DNA of 64,000 nucleotides from an uncultured Ignavibacteriota bacterium. Lineage in GTDB: Bacteria > Bacteroidota > Ignavibacteria > UBA10030 > UBA8401. Numbering within the stretch: position 1 is the first letter of the stretch; the number at the start of each line of letters is the position of its first letter. Positions 14,324-25,760 of this stretch are shown here, piece after piece. Below the pieces are notes generated by a model. That model searched no databases. It had not been told where the DNA came from and saw only the letters and a list, made by a program, of their open reading frames with translations. The position numbers and the translations under genes were made by a program. The stretch spans positions 124,001 to 188,000 of the forward strand of contig CAIOTF010000017.1 of assembly GCA_903861125.1 (NCBI GenBank), in the 5' to 3' direction.

Positions 14324-17098
14324 CTATCCTGTGTTCCGTAATCCCGCAGCAATACCATTGATACAAAGAAAAATCACTTCTTCCAATTCATTTCGTTGTG
14401 CATCGGAAAGCATTTCAGAACGAAGCCGCTTCAATAATTCAACCTGCATCAGGCTCATCGGATCAACGTACGGATTGCGCAGCATGATGGAACGCTGCAG
14501 CACTGCGTTGTTGTCCAGAATATTTTTCTGACCTGAGATCCTGATGAGAAGTTCTTTTGTCTGGTCAAAATGGTTACGTAGACTTGAAAATGTTTCATCT
14601 CTCAGAGTTTTCGGATGGACGAGATCAGCATAATGTTCCGCAATTTCAAAATCCGCCTTTGCAACGATCATCTGAATATTATCGATCATCACCCTGAAGA
14701 AGTTCCAGTGTGTATACATTCTCTGAAGTGCAGCAATACGTGTTGATGCTTTGCGTCCTGTTATTCCGTCAACGCCGAGCCAGCCGGGAAGATTATGCCT
14801 GCTCTGCATCCATGCAAAGACCCATGGAATAGCGCGGAGATCTTCGATTCGTTCCGTATTCATCCGTTTTGCAGGACGTGAGCCGATCTTCATTTTTGTA
14901 ATCTCTTTTAATGGCGTTGCCTGGAAATAGTATTGTACAAGGTCGGGATCGTCATAGACAACGCTCCGGTATTGTTCATAACATTCCTGAGAGATCACGG
15001 ACATCGTTTCCAGCCATTGCGGATGATTTGCCACCTTGATTCTATGGAGGTTTGTTTTATCGAAATATTTTAACAGCATAGCGGATGTTGTTAATTCCAG
15101 GGTCCGCTGTGCAATTTCACGGTGGGAATATTTCAGCGATATCACTTCGCCCTGTTCCGTGATCTTGATCTTGCCGTTGATGGAATGTCCGTTCAATGCC
15201 ATCACAGCCTGAAATTCCGGTCCGCCGCCCCGTCCCACAGTGCCTCCGCGGCCATGGAAGAACATCCAATCGATCGAATATTTTTTCGAACATTTCGCTA
15301 ATGCGCGTTGGGCTTTGTATAATTCCCAATTCGACGTAACAATACCGCCATCTTTGCTGCTGTCCGAATATCCAAGCATGATCTCCTGATGGTTGTTCCG
15401 CATTGTAAGATGCTGACGGTAAGCCGGATTCTCATACAACCGTTCCATAATCGATACGGAAGTGCGGAGATCTCCGATGGTCTCAAAAAGAGGAACAATA
15501 TTTATCGCGCTGCGGTTTTCCGATAATGAATATAATCCTGTCAGTTTCATTAGGAGCAATACTTCCAGAACATCGGCTGCGGATTCGGTCATACTGATAA
15601 TGTATGAACGAATCGCGCGGTGATCGATCTCCGTTAACGCGCGGCCAATCATTCTGAATGTGGCCAGCACTTCTTTTGTTTGGGTCGAAAGCGGATCTTC
15701 AGAGAAAGAAATGTCTGCATCACCGTTGATCATTTTTGTCAGCCAGTTCAGCCGTTCTTCATCCGTGAAGGAAGAATAGTGAACCAGCGACTGCGCACAA
15801 ATCTCACTGACGGCAGCCGTATGTACTTTCTTGTGCTGTCGGACATCGAGAGCGGCGAGCTGAAATCCGAAAGTCTCTACGTTACGGATCAGATCTTTCA
15901 GCGTACCGGTGGCAAGAGATTTTCCTTTATTATGTTCAAGGCTTGTCCGTATCAACGAAAGATCAGTCAGAAGTTCGGCGGATGTCGAATAGGTTGATTC
16001 ATTTCCGGAGAGTGTTCCGTCCAGTTTTTTCTTGAAACGAAGAAGTTTCCGGTAGATCAATGCAATCTTGATCCGGTAGATCTCGTTCTTATTCCTGATT
16101 CCAGGGGGGAATTGTTCGTTACGAATTGTGATATCATCGTCGATTGAATGTTCTAATTCCGGATCAACGGAAATACTTATTTTCGATTCACTTCGTACCA
16201 CATACAGGTCATCAAGCATCTTCAGATACATATCGATGACGGTATGGGATTGACGTTTTAATGCGGACCAGGTTACATCCGCCGTTACAAACGGATTCCC
16301 GTCCCTGTCTCCTCCGATCCAGGATCCAAACTGCAGGAATGAAGGGATATTGCCGATCAATGCCGGATACGTTTCTGCCAGTGCATGTTCAAGCTCGTGG
16401 TAGAATGCTGGGATCGTGTATTGAAGCACTTGCGTAAAATAAAAAAGGCCGTTCGTAACCTCATCCAGCGGAGTGATATCGTAACTTCTGGTTTCTTCCG
16501 TTTGCCACAGACTGGTAATATTCCTTTTTACCGACAATAACATTTCTTCGCGCTCGCTCGGCAGCAGGTTCTTTTGATCGAATTTTTCCAGTATCTGCCA
16601 GATGCGCGAATGCTTTTCGAGCATGGTCCGCCGCAATGCCTCGGTCGGATGTGCAGTGAAAACGGGGGAGATGGACAATTGCGAAAGGAACCGGCGGATC
16701 TCTGCCTCAGTAACTTTTTTCTTCTTTGCAAACAGCAGCGTATGCCGCAGCGAGCCTTGCGGGTAGTGGGATGTTCCGTGCATCTTCTGATCCCTCATCC
16801 GCTGTATGCGGTGATGCTGTTCCGCAATGTTGATCAGTTGAAAATATGTCGAAAACGCACGGATGAGTCTGCGCATTGAGGAGACATTGAGCGAGGCGAT
16901 CTTCTTTGACAATCGTTTCTGTATCTCGACATTGCGAGTTGAACGGTACTCTTTTGTCGATTGACGGATGAATTCCTCAAGCTCAAAAAAAGTGGTTCCT
17001 TCCTGTTCTTTAATCACTTCTCCAAGGATGTTTCCCAGAAGACGGATATTAGAACGGAGTTGTGCATCGGATGATGAAGGTGCCGGTATCTCTTTCAC
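14324..17098 (-). CDS. ppc: Phosphoenolpyruvate carboxylase
   Basis: A 924-residue cytosolic enzyme converting PEP and bicarbonate to oxaloacetate and phosphate, an anaplerotic step. Family motifs are intact: the catalytic His in FTAHPTEALRRT (about 150-165), GGDRDGNPFVT, LGYSDSSKDGG and FFHGRGGTVGRGGGP. The C-terminus ends in INGIAAGLRNTG, as usual for PEPC. Length is typical (about 880-970). The GTG start overlaps the stop of the upstream esterase (GTGA), so both are probably co-transcribed. The gene ends 18 bases from a strong bidirectional hairpin. Confidence 0.97.
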   Translation of the reverse strand: MKEIPAPSSSDAQLRSNIRLLGNILGEVIKEQEGTTFFELEEFIRQSTKEYRSTRNVEIQKRLSKKIASLNVSSMRRLIRAFSTYFQLINIAEQHHRIQRMRDQKMHGTSHYPQGSLRHTLLFAKKKKVTEAEIRRFLSQLSISPVFTAHPTEALRRTMLEKHSRIWQILEKFDQKNLLPSEREEMLLSVKRNITSLWQTEETRSYDITPLDEVTNGLFYFTQVLQYTIPAFYHELEHALAETYPALIGNIPSFLQFGSWIGGDRDGNPFVTADVTWSALKRQSHTVIDMYLKMLDDLYVVRSESKISISVDPELEHSIDDDITIRNEQFPPGIRNKNEIYRIKIALIYRKLLRFKKKLDGTLSGNESTYSTSAELLTDLSLIRTSLEHNKGKSLATGTLKDLIRNVETFGFQLAALDVRQHKKVHTAAVSEICAQSLVHYSSFTDEERLNWLTKMINGDADISFSEDPLSTQTKEVLATFRMIGRALTEIDHRAIRSYIISMTESAADVLEVLLLMKLTGLYSLSENRSAINIVPLFETIGDLRTSVSIMERLYENPAYRQHLTMRNNHQEIMLGYSDSSKDGGIVTSNWELYKAQRALAKCSKKYSIDWMFFHGRGGTVGRGGGPEFQAVMALNGHSINGKIKITEQGEVISLKYSHREIAQRTLELTTSAMLLKYFDKTNLHRIKVANHPQWLETMSVISQECYEQYRSVVYDDPDLVQYYFQATPLKEITKMKIGSRPAKRMNTERIEDLRAIPWVFAWMQSRHNLPGWLGVDGITGRKASTRIAALQRMYTHWNFFRVMIDNIQMIVAKADFEIAEHYADLVHPKTLRDETFSSLRNHFDQTKELLIRISGQKNILDNNAVLQRSIMLRNPYVDPMSLMQVELLKRLRSEMLSDAQRNELEEVIFLCINGIAAGLRNTG

Positions 17099-17955
17099 GG
17101 TTTATTTTTCTTCCCCTGCAATTCAGCGATCCGCTGCAGGATGAGTTTGATTTCCTTATCCCAGAATTTCCAGTCGTGTCCGCCGGCAGTTTCATGCATC
17201 TCAAATTCTATCCCTTTTTTCCGGAGAGCTGCAGCGAGATCGTGCGTCAGCCCGACGATCTCCATGATGCCATCCTGTGAACCGACAGAGAGATAGAAAT
17301 ACGGGAATGATTTTCCCGTCGTTTTTTCGGCAAGAAAGAATATGTCATTATCATTCCATGAATCGGTCCGCGTTTGTCCGAATAATTCCCGCAGATTGGT
17401 CGTGGATGTCTTCGACCAGCGGGCAACGATGGCCGAATCTTCCAGTCCGCCCGGAAATTGGATGGATGGACTGATCCCTCCGATAAAGAAGAACTTTCCG
17501 GGATATTTCAGACCGAATTTAACCGCACCGTATCCTCCCATAGACAGGCCGGCAATGGCTCTGTTGTATTTTGTCTGGATGATTCTGTATTTTTTTTCGA
17601 CACCGGGGATCACATCATTCAATATCAGATTCTCGTAGTTTGCATTTTGGACGAACGGAGAATTGGTATACCACCCATTTCTGGCGTCCGGAGTGACAAT
17701 AATCAGGCGATATTCGCGGGCGTAATGAACCAGATCCGTCAATTTCACCCAATTGGTATAATCCCCACCCAATCCATGCAGAAGATATAAGACCGGATAC
17801 CGTTCGTGACCTTTTGAATACCCTTCAGGTAATATCACATTGAACTTTGAATATGCATTAAGGGAAGGCGAAAACAGACTGTCTTCAACGACCGTTCCTT
17901 GTGAGGACGCTAACTGAAGAAGAAGTATGAAAATAATGAAACAATATTTTTTCAT
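17095..17955 (-). CDS. Secreted esterase, alpha/beta-hydrolase of the esterase D / mycolyltransferase-like family
   Basis: A 286-residue predicted periplasmic or secreted carboxylesterase. Residues 1-19 form a signal peptide (MKKYC..., hydrophobic core, then SSQG). The fold is the putative-esterase type (PF00756): YPVLYLLHGLGGDYTNW for the oxyanion region, the nucleophile Ser in IAGLSMGGYGAVKFGLK, an Asp in SVGSQDGIME and a His in ETAGGHDWKFWDKE. Such enzymes include feruloyl esterases and S-formylglutathione hydrolases; the signal peptide argues against the latter. An AGGAT ribosome site precedes the ATG. It is divergent from the ATP-grasp cluster and translationally coupled to ppc, a pairing with no evident metabolic link. 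Confidence 0.88.
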   Translation of the reverse strand: MKKYCFIIFILLLQLASSQGTVVEDSLFSPSLNAYSKFNVILPEGYSKGHERYPVLYLLHGLGGDYTNWVKLTDLVHYAREYRLIIVTPDARNGWYTNSPFVQNANYENLILNDVIPGVEKKYRIIQTKYNRAIAGLSMGGYGAVKFGLKYPGKFFFIGGISPSIQFPGGLEDSAIVARWSKTSTTNLRELFGQTRTDSWNDNDIFFLAEKTTGKSFPYFYLSVGSQDGIMEIVGLTHDLAAALRKKGIEFEMHETAGGHDWKFWDKEIKLILQRIAELQGKKNKP

Positions 17956-18103
17956 AGTATATCCTATGTAATGTGTTATAGAGTGTACGTGTTTACTTTT
18001 GCCGATCGCATTTCTTTGTTCTTTGTAAACACTAAAATCAACCAGTTTCAGACGTAATGGCTACATAATCATAATGAAAGATTTCTCTTCAAACAACGCA
18101 AAT

Positions 18104-18131
18104 TTGACGAGTTAGAATTAATTGGTATATT
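18104..18131 (+). promoter_or_regulatory. Candidate promoter of the ATP-grasp/GCS2 cluster
   Basis: TTGACG at 18104-18109 and TATATT at 18126-18131 are separated by 16 bases and end about 36 bases before the ATG at 18168. The site lies in the 212-base gap between divergent genes, where a promoter is expected. Confidence 0.45.
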
Positions 18132-18167
18132 CAATCAGAGAAAAAATTTATTCAACTGCGGGGTGTT

Positions 18168-19124
18168 ATGAAAAAAATTGGAATACTCTACGGACAGGAA
18201 AATACCTTTCCTCCGGCATTTATTGAACGGGTCAATGCAAAAAATGAACGGGACATTATCGCTGAATCTGTCACCATCGATAAAGTGATGCAAGGAGAAC
18301 CGACGGAATATGCCGTGATCATAGACCGCATCTCGCAGGACATACCGTTCTACCGCGCCTATCTGAAAAATGCCGCATTGAACGGTACAGCCGTTATCAA
18401 CAATCCGTTCTGGTGGAGTGCCGACGAAAAATTCTTTAACAACTGTCTGGCAACGAAGATCGGCGTTGCCGTTCCCAAAACAGTCATCCTTCCTTCAAAT
18501 CAGCATCCGCCAGATACAACTGAACGTTCGATGCGGAATCTTGCTTATCCTCTTAATTGGGAAGCAATCTTCCGTTACATCGGCTTTCCGGCATACTTCA
18601 AACCGTTCGCCGGCGGTGGCTGGAAAAATGTTTACAAAATTCACAACGCCGAACAATTCTTTAGGACCTACAACGAAACTGGCCAACTGGTGATGATGCT
18701 GCAGGAAGAGATAACATTCACGGAATATTTTCGCTGTTACAGTATTGATTGCAGAGATGTGCATATTATGCAGTACGAACCGCGCAATCCTCACAATATG
18801 CGCTACGTGAAGAATGGCCCTCCCGTTGCGCAGAAAATTATTGATACAGTAAAAAGCGGAGTCCTTTCGCTGAATGAATATCTTGGATATGATTTTAATA
18901 CAGTGGAATTTGCAATTCGTGACGGCATTCCGTACGCAATCGATTTCTGCAATCCAGCGCCGGATGCCGATATCAATTCCGTTGGTGAAGAAAATTTTGA
19001 ATGGATCGTGGAGGCAGCCTCCGCAATGGCGATTCGGAGGGCGAAAGTACACCGGGAGGGGAAAAATAATTTACGTTGGGGGACATTCGTCACGTCGTTT
19101 GCTTCGGGTAAAGGAATAGAATGA
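18168..19124 (+). CDS. ATP-grasp-type ligase (RimK-like), substrate unknown
   Basis: A 318-residue cytosolic protein with ATP-grasp features. The N-terminal part (1-100) resembles a pre-ATP-grasp domain. At 140-158 a strand with a Lys and a Gly-rich loop, FPAYFKPFAGGGWKNVYKI, matches the nucleotide-binding element. The metal-binding end is NTVEFAIRDGIPYAIDFCNPAPD (244-266), with Glu247, Asp259 and Asn262 as likely Mg ligands. ATP-grasp enzymes couple a carboxylate to an amine or thiol through an acyl-phosphate. The stop overlaps the ATG of the GCS2-like ligase (ATGA), and two more genes follow on the same strand. This points to a small-molecule or peptide ligase pathway, but no product can be named from sequence. 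Confidence 0.75.
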   Translation: MKKIGILYGQENTFPPAFIERVNAKNERDIIAESVTIDKVMQGEPTEYAVIIDRISQDIPFYRAYLKNAALNGTAVINNPFWWSADEKFFNNCLATKIGVAVPKTVILPSNQHPPDTTERSMRNLAYPLNWEAIFRYIGFPAYFKPFAGGGWKNVYKIHNAEQFFRTYNETGQLVMMLQEEITFTEYFRCYSIDCRDVHIMQYEPRNPHNMRYVKNGPPVAQKIIDTVKSGVLSLNEYLGYDFNTVEFAIRDGIPYAIDFCNPAPDADINSVGEENFEWIVEAASAMAIRRAKVHREGKNNLRWGTFVTSFASGKGIE

Positions 19125-20224
19125 AATCAAAATTGTTCACATTAGGAATTGAAGAAGAATTCCAGATTGTCGATCCCGTTTCGCGCGATCTGCGTTCGCA
19201 CATCGAGGAGATACTCGAAGAAGGAAAGATCATCCTCCGCGAGAATATCAAACCGGAGATGCATCAGTCCGTTGTGGAAGTAGGAACAGAGATTTGCGAG
19301 AATGTTCAGGATGCACGCCGTGAAGTAAAAAAATTGCGAAGCACGCTCGCTCAACTGGCACAGAAAAAAGATTTGAGGATTGCAGCTGCCGGAACACATC
19401 CTTTTGCTCGATGGGATGCGCAAAAGATCACCGACCATGCGCGGTACCACGAGATCGTAGAGGATATGCAGCAGGTGGCTCGCGCGAATCTGATCTTCGG
19501 TCTTCACGTGCATGTTGGCATGCCGGACCGTGAAACGGCCATTCATGTTATGAATACTGCACGGTATTTTCTTCCGCACATCTTCGCTTTATCGACCAAC
19601 TCGCCGTTCTGGATGGGGAATAACACCGGTTTCAAATCGTACCGGATCAAAATATTTGAACGCTTTCCGCGTACCGGCATTCCTGATATTTTCGAATCAT
19701 TATCGGACTACGAAGATTACATCAAACTGCTGATGAAGACGAAATGCATCGATAATCCGAAACGGATCTGGTGGGATATCCGGCTGCATCCGTTTTTCGA
19801 TACGATAGAATGGAGGGTGTGCGACATTCCGATGCGTGTGGACGAAACGATCGCGCTTGCGGCACTGATGCAGGCGGTCACTGCGAAACTGTATAAATTG
19901 TTCAAGAAGAATCTCGGTTTCCGTATCTATAAAACCCGATTATTGAACGAAAACCGCTGGCGCGCTGCACGGTATGGTGTTCAGGGAAAATTGATCGACT
20001 TTGGGAAACAGGAAGAGGTTCCGTTCACCAGTTTGGTTGATGAACTGCTTGAATTTGTCGATGATGAGATCGACGAACTGGGAAGCCGAAAAGAAGTGGA
20101 ATATGTTAAAGAGATCCTCGCCATGGGTACAGGGGCTGACCGTCAGTTGAAGGTATGGAACGAAACGAATGACATGAACGCCGTGGTCGATTTGATCATT
20201 AAAGAAACAACAATGGGATTATAG
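19121..20224 (+). CDS. Carboxylate-amine ligase, GCS2 / YbdK family
   Basis: A 367-residue cytosolic ATP-dependent amide ligase of the glutamate-cysteine ligase 2 superfamily. The N-terminal GIEEEFQIVDP (9-19) is the metal-binding strand of this fold. GLHVHVGMPDRETAI at about 127-141 and the WWDIRLHPFFDTIEWRVCD segment at about 216-235 are characteristic of the family. Length is typical (about 370). The E. coli relative YbdK has only weak gamma-glutamylcysteine ligase activity, and the natural substrates of most members are not known. It overlaps the ATP-grasp gene by 4 bases, so the two are probably made together. With the adjacent ligases, a di- or tripeptide-like product is plausible, but this is inference. 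Confidence 0.92.
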   Translation: MKSKLFTLGIEEEFQIVDPVSRDLRSHIEEILEEGKIILRENIKPEMHQSVVEVGTEICENVQDARREVKKLRSTLAQLAQKKDLRIAAAGTHPFARWDAQKITDHARYHEIVEDMQQVARANLIFGLHVHVGMPDRETAIHVMNTARYFLPHIFALSTNSPFWMGNNTGFKSYRIKIFERFPRTGIPDIFESLSDYEDYIKLLMKTKCIDNPKRIWWDIRLHPFFDTIEWRVCDIPMRVDETIALAALMQAVTAKLYKLFKKNLGFRIYKTRLLNENRWRAARYGVQGKLIDFGKQEEVPFTSLVDELLEFVDDEIDELGSRKEVEYVKEILAMGTGADRQLKVWNETNDMNAVVDLIIKETTMGL

Positions 20225-20294
20225 CAGGCTCATTTGTCGTTGCCGCGTTAACCATTTATTTTGTAATTCTAATATTGAGAAAGAGCATAATTGT

Positions 20295-21323
20295 TTGACT
20301 ACAGAAATTCGTTCCATTGAATTTGACACATCATTGAGTATGGGAGCGCGCAATGCTGTGCGCGATTGCCTTCGTTTACAGTCATCGGAACGGATTACCA
20401 TCATCACCGATAATGTATGTGCTGAAATTGCTGCATCTCTTGTTCACGAGGTGGAAAAGATAGGCTCGGAATACAGCGTATTTGTCATGGAGGAACATGC
20501 AGAACGTCCGTTGAAAGAAATGCCGCAGATCATCCTTGATGATCTTGGCCGCTCTCAGGTGAGCATTTTTGCCGCCATTACTCAGACCGGAGAACTCGGT
20601 TCCCGCATTCAGATGACAAGTATTGTCAACAAGAACAAGATCCGTCATGGGCACATGGTGAATATCAATAAGCAGATCATGATGGAAGGAATGTGCGCGG
20701 ACTTTCTTGAAGTGGACCGGATCAGCCAGCGACTAATAGAGAAAGCCATACGAACAAAAATCATAAAAGCGAAAACACCCGCAGGGACAGATATTACAGC
20801 CGAGTTTTCGCCGCATTTAAAATGGCTGAAGACGAGCGGCATCATCTCACCTGATAAATGGGGAAACCTTCCGGGGGGCGAGATATTCACTTCGCCGAAT
20901 AATTCAAATGGGATTTTTGTCGTTGACGGTGTTGTCGGAGATTATCTGTGCCAGAAGTGGGGCGATATCCAAAAGCATCCTCTGTTCATCGAGATCGTTG
21001 AGAACAGGATCAGATCGGTGGAATGTTCAAATAAAGAATTGTTAAAGGAATTTCTCGATTACACACACACCGATGAAAACAGCGACCGCGTCGGCGAATT
21101 CGCCATCGGAACGAACATCGCTTTGAAGAGCATTATCGGACATATTCTGCAGGACGAAAAATTTCCAGGTATTCATATCGCGTTTGGCCATCCGTACGCC
21201 GATCATACCGGACAAAATTGGATCTCCACAACACACATTGATTGTGTCGGCCGGAATTTCGATATCTGGATGGACGATGTGCAGGTGATGGAAAAAGGGA
21301 AGTTTATTTTTGAGAATTTCTAA
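20295..21323 (+). CDS. M29-family (aminopeptidase T-like) metallopeptidase
   Basis: A 342-residue predicted cytosolic two-metal peptidase of the thermophilic aminopeptidase (M29) family. All six expected metal or catalytic positions appear intact: Glu196 in NLPGGEIFTSP, Glu268 in VGEFAIGTN, His294 and Tyr301 in HIAFGHPYADH, and His314 with Asp316 in THIDCV. It is shorter than typical M29 enzymes (about 370-415), mainly at the N-terminus. The TTG start follows a GAGAAAGAG ribosome site. It sits 70 bases after the carboxylate-amine ligase, between two ATP-grasp-like genes. A role in trimming or recycling the product of those ligases is plausible, as gamma-glutamyl or dipeptide pathways often carry a hydrolase, but is not shown. 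Confidence 0.85.
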   Translation: MTTEIRSIEFDTSLSMGARNAVRDCLRLQSSERITIITDNVCAEIAASLVHEVEKIGSEYSVFVMEEHAERPLKEMPQIILDDLGRSQVSIFAAITQTGELGSRIQMTSIVNKNKIRHGHMVNINKQIMMEGMCADFLEVDRISQRLIEKAIRTKIIKAKTPAGTDITAEFSPHLKWLKTSGIISPDKWGNLPGGEIFTSPNNSNGIFVVDGVVGDYLCQKWGDIQKHPLFIEIVENRIRSVECSNKELLKEFLDYTHTDENSDRVGEFAIGTNIALKSIIGHILQDEKFPGIHIAFGHPYADHTGQNWISTTHIDCVGRNFDIWMDDVQVMEKGKFIFENF

Positions 21324-21374
21324 TCCCGCGTTTGAATCCGCGAAGCGACAATGTGTTGACGATGTTCATATATT

Positions 21375-22586
21375 ATGATTCCCGATATAAGAAAAAAAAT
21401 AAATTCAGAGTTTACGGATGCAAAATACAGTTCATTTATAAGTGAACTGAATACCACGTACAAATACGCCGTCGAATTCCGGCCGGCGGAAACCCCGGTG
21501 TTCCTGACCAAAGATGTTAAGCGTCAATTGGTGGAAGCGTGCAGCGATATCGTCGGACAACTGCAGACCGAACTGTTTAAAAACCATTCCTCTACCGCGA
21601 TACCGGAAGGTCTTTCGGTGCCGAACGAAACGCCTCATCCGGTATTCCTTCAGATTGATTTCGGTATCTGTACGGATGCACATGGAAACTTCATTCCGCA
21701 ATTGATAGAGCTTCAGGGATTTCCATCGCTGTATGGATATCAGGCGTTCCTAAATGATACGATCAGAAAACATTTCTCCATACCGCCGACGTACGGCGCA
21801 TCGTTCAACGGTTTTGTCAGGGAATCGTATGAAAAATTACTGCGCGAAGTGATCGTCGGAGATTCCGATCCGGCAAATGTCGTATTATTGGAGATCGAAC
21901 CGGAGAAACAAAAGACCCGAATCGATTTTGTTATCATGGAACGAATGCTCGGCATCCGGACGGTATGTCTGACAAAGGTATTAAAGCGCGGGAAACAATT
22001 GTTTTATTATGACGATGGAAAAGAGATCCGCATAGAACGGATCTATAACCGTGTTATTTTCGATGAATTGATACGGAAAAAAATCCGTTCTGAATTCACA
22101 TTAACAGATGATGTGGATGTTCATTGGGTCGGACATCCCAATTGGTATTTCCGCGTCAGTAAGCAGACTCTTCCATTGCTTCGGGGCAGGTATGTTCCGG
22201 AATGTCACTTCGTCCATGAATTGCATGAATATCCTTCAGACCTTCATAATTATGTTTTAAAGCCGCTCTATTCATTTGCCGGAATTGGTGTTGATGTTGA
22301 TGTGACAAAAGAAAAGCTGAACAGTTTGACGGATAAGTCGCAATATCTGCTCCAGCGCAAGGTGGAATATGCCGATCTAATTGCAACACCAAACGGGTAT
22401 GCAAAAGCAGAGGTCCGGATGATGTTCGTCTGGCCGGAAGGACCAAACTCCGTAGCAGCAGTGAACAAAGGGCCGATCCTTGTCAAGAATCTCGTCCGTT
22501 TAAGCAAAGGGAAAATGATGGGGGTCGATTTTAACAAGGACAAAACATGGGTTGGTTCAACCATTGCATACCACGAACCATTGTAA
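21375..22586 (+). CDS. Probable second ATP-grasp-like protein, substrate unknown
   Basis: A 403-residue cytosolic protein that I do not recognise by name. Two elements look like an ATP-grasp fold in permuted order. An acidic strand with LIELQGFPSLYGYQ at about 109-125 could supply Mg ligands. Later, VLKPLYSFAGIGVDVDVT (about 295-312) resembles the Lys plus Gly-rich nucleotide-binding loop, followed by LLQRKVEYADLI (about 325-336). Nucleotide-binding elements following the metal-binding strand suggest a circularly permuted ATP-grasp, as in glutathionylspermidine-synthase-like proteins. It starts 51 bases after the M29 gene and is the last of the four-gene cluster. The assignment rests on motif reading only. 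Confidence 0.55.
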   Translation: MIPDIRKKINSEFTDAKYSSFISELNTTYKYAVEFRPAETPVFLTKDVKRQLVEACSDIVGQLQTELFKNHSSTAIPEGLSVPNETPHPVFLQIDFGICTDAHGNFIPQLIELQGFPSLYGYQAFLNDTIRKHFSIPPTYGASFNGFVRESYEKLLREVIVGDSDPANVVLLEIEPEKQKTRIDFVIMERMLGIRTVCLTKVLKRGKQLFYYDDGKEIRIERIYNRVIFDELIRKKIRSEFTLTDDVDVHWVGHPNWYFRVSKQTLPLLRGRYVPECHFVHELHEYPSDLHNYVLKPLYSFAGIGVDVDVTKEKLNSLTDKSQYLLQRKVEYADLIATPNGYAKAEVRMMFVWPEGPNSVAAVNKGPILVKNLVRLSKGKMMGVDFNKDKTWVGSTIAYHEPL

Positions 22587-22593
22587 AAAAATC

Positions 22594-23187
22594 ATGCCAA
22601 AATCCAAAACTAAAAAAATATATGTTAAGCACATGGTGTGCGAACGTTGTATCCGTGTTGTACGCGAAGAACTTCAAAAATTCGGTCTTGATGTGCGTAC
22701 TGTTGAACTTGGCGAAGTTGAGGTTGTTCAAACTCCGCGGTCAAACGATATCAATTCGATCAAAAAGATACTTGAACAGAACGGGTTTGAACTGATCGAG
22801 GATAAAAATGCAAAGACCATTGAAGCGGTAAAGACAGCGATTATTCGTCTTGTGCATCATAACCACGATACGGAACCGATGAAACTGAAGTATTCTGAAT
22901 ATATTGCACAAAAAATCGGGAAGGACTATCACTCGATCAGCGCACTGTTTTCATCGGTTGAGAACGTGACAATAGAGCAATATATCATTAAGCAAAAGAT
23001 TGAACGGGTGAAAGAACTGCTAAAATACGATGATCGCTCGCTGAGTCAGATTGCAGAGATAATGGGGTACAGCAGTGTTCAGCATCTTTCCAATCAGTTC
23101 AAATCCGTTACAGGTTTTACTCCCGGTTCATTCAAAAGATTGAACCCGAAACATCAGCATCGTATTCCGCTCGATAAAGTACGGTAA
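22594..23187 (+). CDS. AraC-type transcriptional regulator with HMA-like CxxC N-terminus
   Basis: A 197-residue predicted copper or heavy-metal responsive regulator. The N-terminal 75 residues have the length and pattern of an HMA (ferredoxin-like) metal-binding domain, with the metal motif HMVCERC at about 13-19. The C-terminal half (about 90-190) is an AraC HTH_18 domain: the second helix-turn-helix reads RSLSQIAEIMGYSSVQHLSN, followed by the FKSVTGFTPGSFKR signature. The ATG at 22594 is preferred over an upstream ATG at 22552, which lies within the end of the previous gene. It directly precedes copZ-copA, so it most likely controls them. The regulator type is familiar to me beside copper exporters of Bacteroidota; direct metal sensing through CxxC is inference. 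Confidence 0.82.
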   Translation: MPKSKTKKIYVKHMVCERCIRVVREELQKFGLDVRTVELGEVEVVQTPRSNDINSIKKILEQNGFELIEDKNAKTIEAVKTAIIRLVHHNHDTEPMKLKYSEYIAQKIGKDYHSISALFSSVENVTIEQYIIKQKIERVKELLKYDDRSLSQIAEIMGYSSVQHLSNQFKSVTGFTPGSFKRLNPKHQHRIPLDKVR

Positions 23188-23204
23188 AAGAGTCCTTCCG
23201 AATT

Positions 23205-23232
23205 TTGCACAAAAATTTCCATAAAATATAAA
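23205..23232 (+). promoter_or_regulatory. Candidate promoter of copZ-copA
   Basis: TTGCAC at 23205-23210 and TATAAA at 23227-23232 are 16 bases apart and end 52 bases before the copZ-like ATG. It is the likely target region of the adjacent AraC-type regulator. No clear operator palindrome is visible. Confidence 0.45.
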
Positions 23233-23284
23233 GAATCAGTAGGGTTAACTGTGTACATTCTTGTCACCAATAAAAGGAGAAACA

Positions 23285-23494
23285 ATGAATACAAAAAAAT
23301 TAACAATTAACGGAATGAGCTGCGGTCATTGCGTTATGTCTCTTAAAAAAGAATTATCCAAAATGCAGGGCGTTACCATCAATATGGTGAGTATTGGTTC
23401 AGCCGAAGTGGTCGTCGATGAATCAACGGTAACGGATCTGGCGCTTCAGCATGCGGTTGAAGAAGCCGGATATTCTGTTACTTCTATTCAGTAA
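23285..23494 (+). CDS. copZ: CopZ-like heavy-metal-associated copper chaperone
   Basis: A 69-residue soluble HMA-domain protein that binds Cu(I) and delivers it to the exporter. The metal motif is GMSCGHC at residues 9-15, followed by a beta-alpha-beta-beta-alpha-beta pattern ending in EEAGYSVTSIQ, which is the complete length of one HMA domain. The ATG at 23285 follows AGGAG with 6 bases between; an upstream start at 23261 would lie across this ribosome site. It lies 49 bases before copA, with which it forms an operon. Confidence 0.92.
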   Translation: MNTKKLTINGMSCGHCVMSLKKELSKMQGVTINMVSIGSAEVVVDESTVTDLALQHAVEEAGYSVTSIQ

Positions 23495-23543
23495 AAAACT
23501 AAAATGACCGTTACCAAATTTCGGTCGTACATATAAGGAACAT

Positions 23544-25760
23544 ATGGAGACAAAGATCCAAACACTTTCGCTTCCTGTTGAAGGGATGACCTGCGCCAGT
23601 TGTGTGGCACGAGTGGAAAAAGTTCTAGCACGGATCGATGGTGTAGAAAAAGCCACGGTGAATCTTGCAACGGAAAAAGCGACGATACAATTCAAACCAT
23701 CTGTTGCCACGGCGGAGCAACTTGCGAAAGCGGTGGAAGAGGCGGGGTATAAGCTTGTGATTGACACTGTAAAGCCATCCGGTGATGCTTCGTCGTTGGA
23801 CAGCTATATAAAACTTAAGAAAGAATTCATCCTTAGCCTGATTTTTGCAGTGCCGGTAATCGTTCTGAGCATGATCAGTATGACCGGCTGGTTCGTGAAA
23901 ATATCTCCGTTGGGAATGCAGGAAGTGAATACACTTCTCTTTCTCGGTGCAACGGTCGTTATGGTCGTCTCCGGTAAGAGATTTTTCCTTATTGCATGGA
24001 AATTGGCGAAACATTTCGAAGCGGATATGAATACACTTGTTGCCGTCGGAACCGGTGTAGCATATCTTTTCAGCACCATCGTCGTATTGTTCCCGGACTG
24101 GCTTCCGGAAACGGTCGATGTGATGGATGTCTATTTTGATACGGCAGTTTCCATTATCACGCTGATCCTTCTTGGAAAAGTATTGGAAGCGCGTGCAAAG
24201 AAACGTGCATCGGATGCAATGCGAAATCTAATTTCCGTTCAGCCCAGAACCGCACGTGTGTTTCGGAACAATGAATATTCCGATATGGAGATCAACCATG
24301 TGGTAAAGAATGACATGATTCTTGTCCGTCCGGGAGAAAAAATTCCTGTTGACGGAATCATCGAAAAAGGTGAATCGTCGATCGATGAATCGATGATGAC
24401 GGGGGAAAGTATTCCGGTGCCGAAAAAGAAGGGGGATAGTGTTATCGGCGGCACAATCAACGCCATGGGGAGCATAGAATTTCGGGCAACGGCGGTCGGA
24501 AGCGATACCATGCTTGCACAGATCGTTCGTTTGGTTGAAGAAGCGCAAGGTTCAAAGGCGCCGATTCAATCGCTTGCAGATACGATCGCATCGGTTTTTG
24601 TTCCGGTTGTCATCGGAATTTCTCTTCTCACGTTCACGCTGGGTATGGTTGTGTGGAATTTGGAATTTTCATCCGCCATGATCCATGCGATCGCCGTTTT
24701 GATCATCGCCTGCCCGTGTGCTCTTGGACTTGCCACACCGACGGCGATTATGGTCGGAACAGGCCGCGGTGCATCTTCAGGAATATTGATTAAGAATGCA
24801 GAAAGTCTTGAACGGGCCGGTTCGATTACCACCGTAGTTTTTGATAAGACCGGCACGATCACGGAGGGGAAACCATCTGTCACGGATCTTTTTCTGTTCA
24901 ATGATTGCAGCAGAGAAGAGTTGATGATGCTTGCTGCATCGGTTGAACATAAATCAGAACACCCGCTTTCGAAAGCGATTGTTGAATATGCAGAAGCGAA
25001 TAATATCTCTCTGCAGCCTGTTGATTCATTTCTGGCGAATCCGGGATATGGCATTACCGGAAAGGTGGATGGGAAAAATATCGTGATCGGAAAAGAGGAG
25101 ATCATGCGCGAGTCGTTGGTGAATATTACTGCCGCCGAACAGACGGTTGCACGTCTGCAGCAGGATGGGAAGACGGTGGTGTTTGTGGGAGTAAACCGAA
25201 AACTGGCCGGAGTAATTGCCGTTGCTGATACGCTCCGTGAATCATCAAAAGAAGCAGTTCGAACTCTTCAGCAGATGCATATCAACATTGTGCTGCTGAC
25301 AGGCGATAATAAAACTACGGCGGAATCAATTGCAAAAAAAGTGGGGATCACTACGGTGGTTGCCAATGTGTCGCCTAAAGACAAAGCAGAATATATTAAA
25401 CAGCTGCAGGAAAAGAATGAGATCGTCGCAATGGTCGGAGACGGTATCAATGATGCACCGGCGCTTGCACAGGCGAATGTCAGTCTGGCAATGGCTTCCG
25501 GTACCGATGTAGCGCTGGAAACCGCTGATGTTGCATTGATGCGCCATGATTTGACAGCTGTGGTGAGAGCCATAACATTATCACGCAGAACCATCCGCAC
25601 GATCAAAGAAAATCTTTTTTGGGCATTTATCTATAACGTAGTCGGCATACCGCTTGCAGCGTTCGGAATGCTGAATCCGACATTTGCCGCCGGGGCGATG
25701 GCATTCAGTTCGGTGAGTGTGATAAGTAATTCTCTGAGGTTGAAAACAAAAAAAATATGA
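23544..25760 (+). CDS. copA: Copper-translocating P1B-type ATPase CopA
   Basis: A 738-residue inner-membrane ATPase exporting Cu(I) from the cytosol. One N-terminal HMA domain carries GMTCASC (14-20). Membrane segments begin at about 90. The motifs of the family are all present: TGES actuator loop ([10 protein letters not shown]), the CPC ion site in [13 protein letters not shown] (about 390), DKTGTITEG with the phosphorylated Asp (about 434), the HP pair in SEHPLSKAI, and [12 protein letters not shown] (about 632). The CPC motif and length mark the Cu+ subgroup (P1B-1). The neighbouring chaperone and AraC-type regulator complete a copper-tolerance unit. No terminator is visible in the 62 bases before the convergent DUF1801 gene. 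Confidence 0.97.

Follow-up and report, generated by a model that had tools for sequence, protein, structure and literature searches.

A candidate glutathione-like pathway with three ligases and an exchangeable hydrolase in Ignavibacteria and other bacteria

Introduction

Gene clusters of ligases that act independently of non-ribosomal peptide synthetases (NRPS) are already known as a kind, and a ligase of the glutathione synthetase (GS) fold encoded beside a peptidase resembling glutamine amidotransferases (GATase) is on record as well (PMC2588565). Here, we analyze a four-gene locus at positions 18168-22586 of a window of 64,000 nucleotides, the whole stretch of DNA that was studied, from an uncultured Ignavibacteriota bacterium (GenBank assembly GCA_903861125.1, contig CAIOTF010000017.1, positions 124,001 to 188,000). 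All four genes are complete and open and lie on the plus strand, and the first two overlap by four bases (ATGA at 19121-19124); the first-pass annotation of the window had described this overlap and a shared strand. Gene A (18168-19124, 318 amino acids, aa) encodes a predicted ATP-grasp ligase of the Ddl/RimK/LysX type, gene B (19121-20224, 367 aa) a GCS2/YbdK-type carboxylate-amine ligase, gene C (20295-21323, 342 aa, with a TTG start as called) an M29 aminopeptidase-like protein in an exchangeable hydrolase slot, and gene D (21375-22586, 403 aa) a predicted circularly permuted ATP-grasp ligase of the glutathione synthetase/GspS/YgiC fold. The core set consists of A, B and D; the M29 peptidase lies outside this core, as one of two hydrolases that can stand in for each other beside it. 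We put the chances at slightly better than even that these genes form a compact pathway that resembles glutathione synthesis, needs no NRPS and leads to a short gamma-glutamyl-type peptide or pseudopeptide, with the hydrolase being exchangeable.

Synthesis of glutathione, homoglutathione and glutathionylspermidine relies on gamma-glutamylcysteine synthetase (GCS) together with eukaryotic-type GS, or on GspS, and has the E. coli relatives YgiC and YjfC. The locus shares with this group a GCS2 ligase (B) and a ligase of the same fold (D, Z 19-26 in structural alignments). It differs by the addition of a ligase of another ATP-grasp class (A) and of an exchangeable hydrolase, and D itself is only 9-14% identical to GS/GspS/YgiC enzymes and departs from them at catalytic-looking positions discussed below. 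A second comparison is offered by Cp1B, the ligase of E-64 synthesis, a stand-alone amide ligase with the fold of D (Z 21.3) that belongs to an NRPS-independent cluster (PMC12568646). Cp1B is fungal, however, and the partners named in the available text of that source are an oxygenase and an ANL-family amide synthetase, with no mention there of a GCS2, M29 or GATase partner. Furthermore, a second carboxylate-amine ligase family of GCS2 size adjoins a GATase-like thiol peptidase or a gamma-glutamyl cyclotransferase and has the predicted role of making glutathione or related peptides, which resembles the present case in that a GS-fold ligase stands beside a GATase-like hydrolase (PMC2588565). 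That family is a different one, from proteobacteria and firmicutes, and the term ATP-grasp is absent from that text. The accessible part of PMC2922099 concerns other systems. The A-B-D set is not described in the literature searched, mostly titles and abstract openings; the amidoligase survey that Iyer, Aravind and coworkers published in 2009 (Mol BioSyst) was not covered, and a prior mention there is possible.

Three Probable Ligases of Two Folds

B lies above the curated cut-offs of both PF04107 (E 5.6e-67, 226.6 bits against 21) and NF010039 (E 3e-167, 556 bits against 371) and matches YbdK (1r8g) at E 6.9e-63. The conserved motifs of GCS2/YbdK enzymes are present, and residues E11-E13, H129, H131 and R232 are invariant in all 39 aligned rows. 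B is the sole GCS2 match in the window's own genome (G000).

The two remaining ligases are far less visible to sequence searches. Matches of A to RimK and LysX are weak (best E 7e-4), no Pfam model matches A, and phmmer against the PDB returned chance-level rows only; a profile search of the PDB gave 20 matches at E up to 1, all of them ATP-grasp-bearing, with Ddl (3r23) at the top (E 9.9e-4). D matches no Pfam or NCBIfam model, and phmmer against the PDB was empty as well. These links being too weak for either protein, predicted structures then settled the folds.

The model of A, built from 45 sequences, has a predicted local distance difference test score (pLDDT) of 89.0. Its best Foldseek match is Ddl (E 7.8e-12), with ArgX/LysX, graspetide ligases and RimK also among the fold neighbors, and the best VIA-align match (Z 13.4) covers model residues 84-294. 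K145, GGGW 149-152, D259 and N262 do not vary across the 45 rows. A thus appears to combine the fold with an ATP-binding Lys and a glycine-rich loop, residue roles being assigned from the family, and is predicted to belong to the ATP-grasp superfamily, Ddl/RimK type.

The model of D (42 sequences, pLDDT 91.0) falls into a single family: of the 28 Foldseek matches with E no higher than 1e-3, every one belongs to the GS/GspS/YgiC group, comprising eukaryotic-type glutathione synthetases, homoglutathione synthetase, glutathionylspermidine synthetases, YgiC, YjfC, nematode GS-like proteins and Cp1B. In VIA-align the best partner is YgiC (7uk8; Z 25.9, root-mean-square deviation 3.5, 341 aligned residues), which spans model range 1-402 and hence the full length; GspS (Z 23.8), homoglutathione synthetase (Z 23.7) and human GS (Z 23-24) follow. 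The first 25 rows all belong to this family (Z 19.1-25.9), and the next values drop to 11.9 for a putative GCS (3k1t) and 8.5 for LysX. Residues 1-217 of LysX (3vpd) align to residues 168-402 of D. The start of LysX is thus placed on the second half of D, so that D has the permuted order of the GS/GspS/YgiC family. Accordingly, the presumed Mg segment (D95, E112 and Q114) precedes the Lys loop with K296, and these four residues show no variation across the 42 rows. We regard D as a circularly permuted ATP-grasp enzyme of the GS/GspS/YgiC fold on the strength of this model, with ligase activity as a prediction. It represents a widespread ligase family without a Pfam or NCBIfam model match in this analysis.

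Taken with B, the two models agree with the first-pass annotation, which had proposed three amide-bond-forming enzymes of two folds at the locus and an ATP-grasp fold for the genes starting at 18168 and 21375: A, B and D are probable amide-bond-forming enzymes, A and D of the ATP-grasp fold and B of the GCS2 fold. The ratios of nonsynonymous to synonymous substitution rates between the window and the closest named relative (locus L121) are 0.046 for A, 0.003 for B, 0.018 for C and 0.097 for D, indicating purifying selection on all four genes.

The fold neighbors of A raise the question of whether the target is a protein. A RimK- or tag-ligase-like A might couple a short peptide, the product of B and D, to a protein, possibly a ribosomal protein, with the hydrolase as the eraser. 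RimK, ArgX/LysX and graspetide ligases among the neighbors of A would fit such a role, as would the unusually high conservation of A and B, whose mean column identity reaches 74% (45 rows) and 75% (39 rows) across several phyla. Among small open reading frames (ORFs) of 18-100 aa that lie no farther than 2 kb from the core genes and do not fall inside genes that have relatives, however, none is common to more than two of 33 loci. A tag is therefore not apparent in this set, nor is the precursor peptide gene beside the ATP-grasp ligase that a graspetide cluster would have. This fits a small-molecule pathway rather than a pathway to ribosomally synthesized and post-translationally modified peptides. 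Moreover, the D-fold enzymes covered by the available text of PMC12568646 act on small molecules and peptides (homoglutathione, polyamine conjugates, E-64 precursors). We consider protein modification quite unlikely.

Distribution and Gene Order

The gene caller used was simple, taking longest ORFs with small overlaps permitted, and mislabelled some genes; the key counts rest on tblastn matches. In a comparison of 60 genomes, that of the window and those of 59 relatives, D is present in 17, once as a short fragment. Fifteen regions from relatives show A-B-C-D complete and in order in nine cases, a consistent partial order cut by the contig end in five and D alone in one. In a set of 395 genomes from the phylum, 114 have D and 133 have A (at E<1e-60, with six more genomes left uncounted that have weak matches only). 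Both occur in 109 genomes, some of which carry them unlinked, against about 38 expected from the frequencies by simple arithmetic that ignores relatedness. A without D was found in 24 genomes and D without A in five, one of these (G104) having a fragment of 25 residues. B was found in 71 of the 80 genomes searched. The genomes without it are G008, G009, G104, G259, G209, G329, G094, G120 and G071; G008 and G009 are the two included genomes that lack both A and D.

For a wider view, 586 D relatives in named genomes were confirmed, of which the best 80 supplied the loci; these loci are therefore biased towards close relatives of the D in the window. In 61 of them, the sequence extends 5 kb or more upstream of D. 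The hosts among these best 80 are Ignavibacteria, Melioribacter/Stygiobacter, Chitinophagaceae, Saprospiraceae and Chlorobi-type metagenome-assembled genomes (MAGs), the Cytophagales genera Hymenobacter, Spirosoma, Larkinella, Arcicella and Fibrivirga, and, in Verrucomicrobiota, Chthoniobacterales, Spartobacteria and Opitutaceae. Single D-bearing MAGs are titled Calditrichaeota (L140) and Anaerolineae (L189), names that come from MAG titles and may reflect mis-binning. A, B and D stand together at 35 of the 61 loci, in Ignavibacteria, Cytophagales and Verrucomicrobiota. With X for the second hydrolase described below, the layouts are ABCD (17 loci), ABXD (12), ABD (5), XABD (1) and AXD (5), followed by XD (5), CD (4), BXD (3), BCD (1) and D alone (8). 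The order is thus kept in other families and in another phylum, and the genes stay together beyond close relatives. On a midpoint-rooted tree of 81 D rows, one starred group unites the window's genus, with its five rows, and the 21 rows of Verrucomicrobiota, suggesting transfer between phyla.

Could the neighborhood be a loose coincidence of unrelated genes? In several families D lacks A and B as neighbors, and the eight loci with D alone have none of A, B, C or X upstream. The excess of genomes with both A and D, which includes unlinked pairs, speaks against coincidence. So does the behavior of a neighboring regulator gene, E, which adjoins D in seven of seven regions of the same genus and in none of eight others: gene order is evidently not conserved by default. 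This explanation is already disfavored, and we hold it to be highly improbable.

The layout also invites the idea that the cluster is the main low-molecular-weight thiol pathway and replaces glutathione, since a GCS2 enzyme with a GS-fold partner is the arrangement of glutathione synthesis. Against this, of the 78 genomes tested, 75 have the bacillithiol enzyme BshC, both where the cluster is present and where it is missing, and D is absent from 75 of the 98 genomes of the window's own order (the other 23 have D, some as fragments). Because bshC is present regardless of the cluster, the latter is probably not the main thiol pathway, a role that we judge improbable. The glutathione-like compound that the first-pass annotation suggested as a possible product gains support from the GS/GspS fold of D and from the GCS2 ligase B.

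The Exchangeable Hydrolase

C matches PF02073 (Peptidase_M29; E 2.4e-14, 53.4 bits against a cut-off of 27) and AmpS (1zjc; E 1.5e-5). The two-metal site of M29 enzymes, which we take to consist of two Glu, two His and an Asp plus a Tyr at the positions known from AmpT, has apparent counterparts in E196, E268, H294, Y301, H314 and D316, all invariant in 18 of 18 rows. In the AmpS alignment the first four are paired with identical letters, and the alignment stops before H314 and D316. Judged by its sequence, C keeps the presumed metal residues intact, in line with the two-metal peptidase that had been proposed for this gene. While C resembles AmpS and AmpT in these respects, it differs in that the Pfam profile fits residues 156-321 only, with a divergent N-terminal part. 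As a separate observation, a second M29-like paralogue (E ~1e-33) lies outside the cluster in many members of the class, for example at C37:62401-63357 in G000.

At other loci the position of C between B and D is often occupied by X, a class-I GATase-like protein of about 277 aa (PF00117 in both proteins tested), which at locus L164 precedes A instead. Its fold is presumably that of gamma-glutamyl hydrolases such as PuuD. Residues Cys106, His209 and Glu211 are invariant in 29 of 29 rows. According to tblastn, the slot holds C at 22 of the 61 loci, X at 26, neither at 13 and both at none, where simple arithmetic predicts both at about 9 of 61 if the two were independent. X was searched in 160 genomes, and C as well as B in 80. 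None of the eight genomes with a strong match to C (E<1e-150) has X. Of the 138 genomes carrying A or D, 84 have a strong match to X; of 22 lacking D, none does (20 of the 22 were also part of the search for A). When mapped on the D tree, the C and X labels require at least four changes; some labels of "neither" stem from contigs that end near D. The swapping of two unrelated hydrolases in one slot suggests that both cut the same bond, and the recurrence of the M29/GATase swap hints at which bond that is. The four-gene unit of the first-pass annotation is hence narrowed: A, B and D persist as a core, and the M29 peptidase can be replaced by X or be missing.

An invariant Cys-His-Glu set in a class-I GATase-like protein would also fit catabolism of an amine or amino acid via gamma-glutamylation, similar to PuuA/PuuD. 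B and D would then glutamylate the amine, and C or X would release the product after oxidation elsewhere, with the M29 peptidase able to substitute for X as the hydrolase. Such a route, however, needs fewer than three ligases. Pfam searches on representatives of ten other recurrent neighbor families (7-15 loci each) revealed no amine oxidase and no aldehyde dehydrogenase; they include an aminotransferase-like pyridoxal phosphate enzyme, enzymes of the alcohol dehydrogenase and short-chain dehydrogenase/reductase types and one family without a match. This is a weak argument, as the oxidizing enzymes may lie elsewhere and other families are unannotated. We regard the catabolic alternative as unlikely.

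A Proposed Pathway

The analysis establishes the folds, the intactness of the presumed catalytic residues, the conservation and co-occurrence of the genes and the swapping of C and X. For the glutathione-like pathway, we infer from this a joint action of the enzymes in the following order, along with their substrates and the part played by the hydrolase. First, B would activate the carboxylate of glutamate or a similar compound and couple it to an amine to yield a gamma-glutamyl amide. D might then extend this gamma-glutamyl intermediate at its free carboxylate with an amino acid or a polyamine, and A, as a Ddl/RimK-type ligase, would attach a further unit. Finally, C or the putative thiol hydrolase X would cut one amide bond of an intermediate or of the product, which may serve gamma-glutamyl removal or turnover.

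Several observations weigh against this pathway or complicate it. The genes themselves point to no particular substrate, product or transporter. Alignments of profiles by hhalign were not significant for A against E. coli RimK or for D against E. coli Gss. The catalytic residues R-x-D...E-x-N of Cp1B are R139, D141, E163 and N165, and loss of the Arg hurts activity, according to the available text of PMC12568646. Where Cp1B has this Arg, D has Q, A, V, S or T at residue 93, two positions ahead of the invariant D95, and residue 114 is Gln instead of the Asn of the usual E-x-N, both positions being mapped by motif and not by superposed coordinates. In addition, all 42 rows of D carry Ala or Ser in place of the loop Glu of YgiC, as judged from a weak profile alignment. 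These substitutions suggest that the reaction of D may differ or be weakened. At the level of genomes, B falls below the cut-off in three that have A and D (G259, G094 and G120). Several families have A, B and D apart from each other and lack both X and a strong C, which makes the hydrolase optional, and loci with an empty slot can have X elsewhere in the genome (e.g., G092 and G271). Furthermore, A is found without D in a related setting: in seven of 14 regions with A and no D, taken from the 24 such genomes, A lies beside a PF14403-like permuted ATP-grasp protein (PF14403 scored above its cut-off in one of two proteins tested and just below it in the other).

If the pathway holds, its product may be a gamma-glutamyl peptide or pseudopeptide metabolite or cofactor that has not been described before, made by a three-ligase route, deglutamylated or trimmed by one or the other of two unrelated hydrolases with several mutual replacements in their history, and widespread in Ignavibacteria, Cytophagales, Chitinophagales and Verrucomicrobiota. 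We advance this broader proposal tentatively and would give it rather less than an even chance. The gene set points to a common small molecule in cultured genera, among them Hymenobacter, Spirosoma, Larkinella and Arcicella. With three ligases of clear structural parentage, an optional hydrolase and culturable hosts, the product is directly testable.

Neighboring Genes

Upstream of A lies a divergent intergenic region (17956-18167, plus strand as listed). Its best promoter match, at 18104-18131, agrees with the consensus at 10 of 12 positions, and the first-pass annotation had named a promoter candidate in front of the cluster. The region 17900-23600 contains six promoter-like sites against 11.8 expected from shuffles. 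Because there are fewer sites than the shuffles predict, the match is at chance level and the proposed promoter finds no support.

Beyond this region, a divergent gene on the minus strand (17095-17955) encodes a PF00756-type esterase (E 6.1e-29) with an N-terminus that looks like a signal peptide by eye. Among 36 loci with enough flank, such a divergent esterase lies upstream of A in 12, the window included, and an alpha/beta hydrolase on the same strand in 18; five loci have both esterase-type neighbors and 11 neither. The flanking esterase genes are frequent but non-constant neighbors of the set.

Downstream, regulator E (22594-23187, with an in-frame ATG at 22594, 7 bases past the D stop) is of the AraC type, and its N-terminal CxxC resembles that of copper chaperones, similar to heavy-metal-associated (HMA) domains. 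It is followed by F (23544-25760), a CopA-type P-ATPase, an order found in six of the seven regions of the same genus, while in the seventh the contig ends there. E and F were set aside as parts of the system, since adjacency to D is confined to the genus.

Some clusters show further variations. In the clusters of A with the PF14403-like protein and without D (L212, L213 and L215-L219), X is present in five of seven and esterase-type genes are frequent. In one family of the phylum, A adjoins or lies near a member of one gene cluster (L202 7650-9182, L204 4404-5906 and L205 8101-9639); the member tested, in L202, is an aromatic amino acid lyase (PF00221). In a genome of the window's genus, a gene for a protein of 364 aa that Pfam does not match convincingly separates C from D (L020 5841-6935). 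At L032 (5962-9101), a solitary D is immediately followed by a gene that by eye looks like an oligopeptidase, and L028, L029 and L031 have relatives of this gene close to the cluster.

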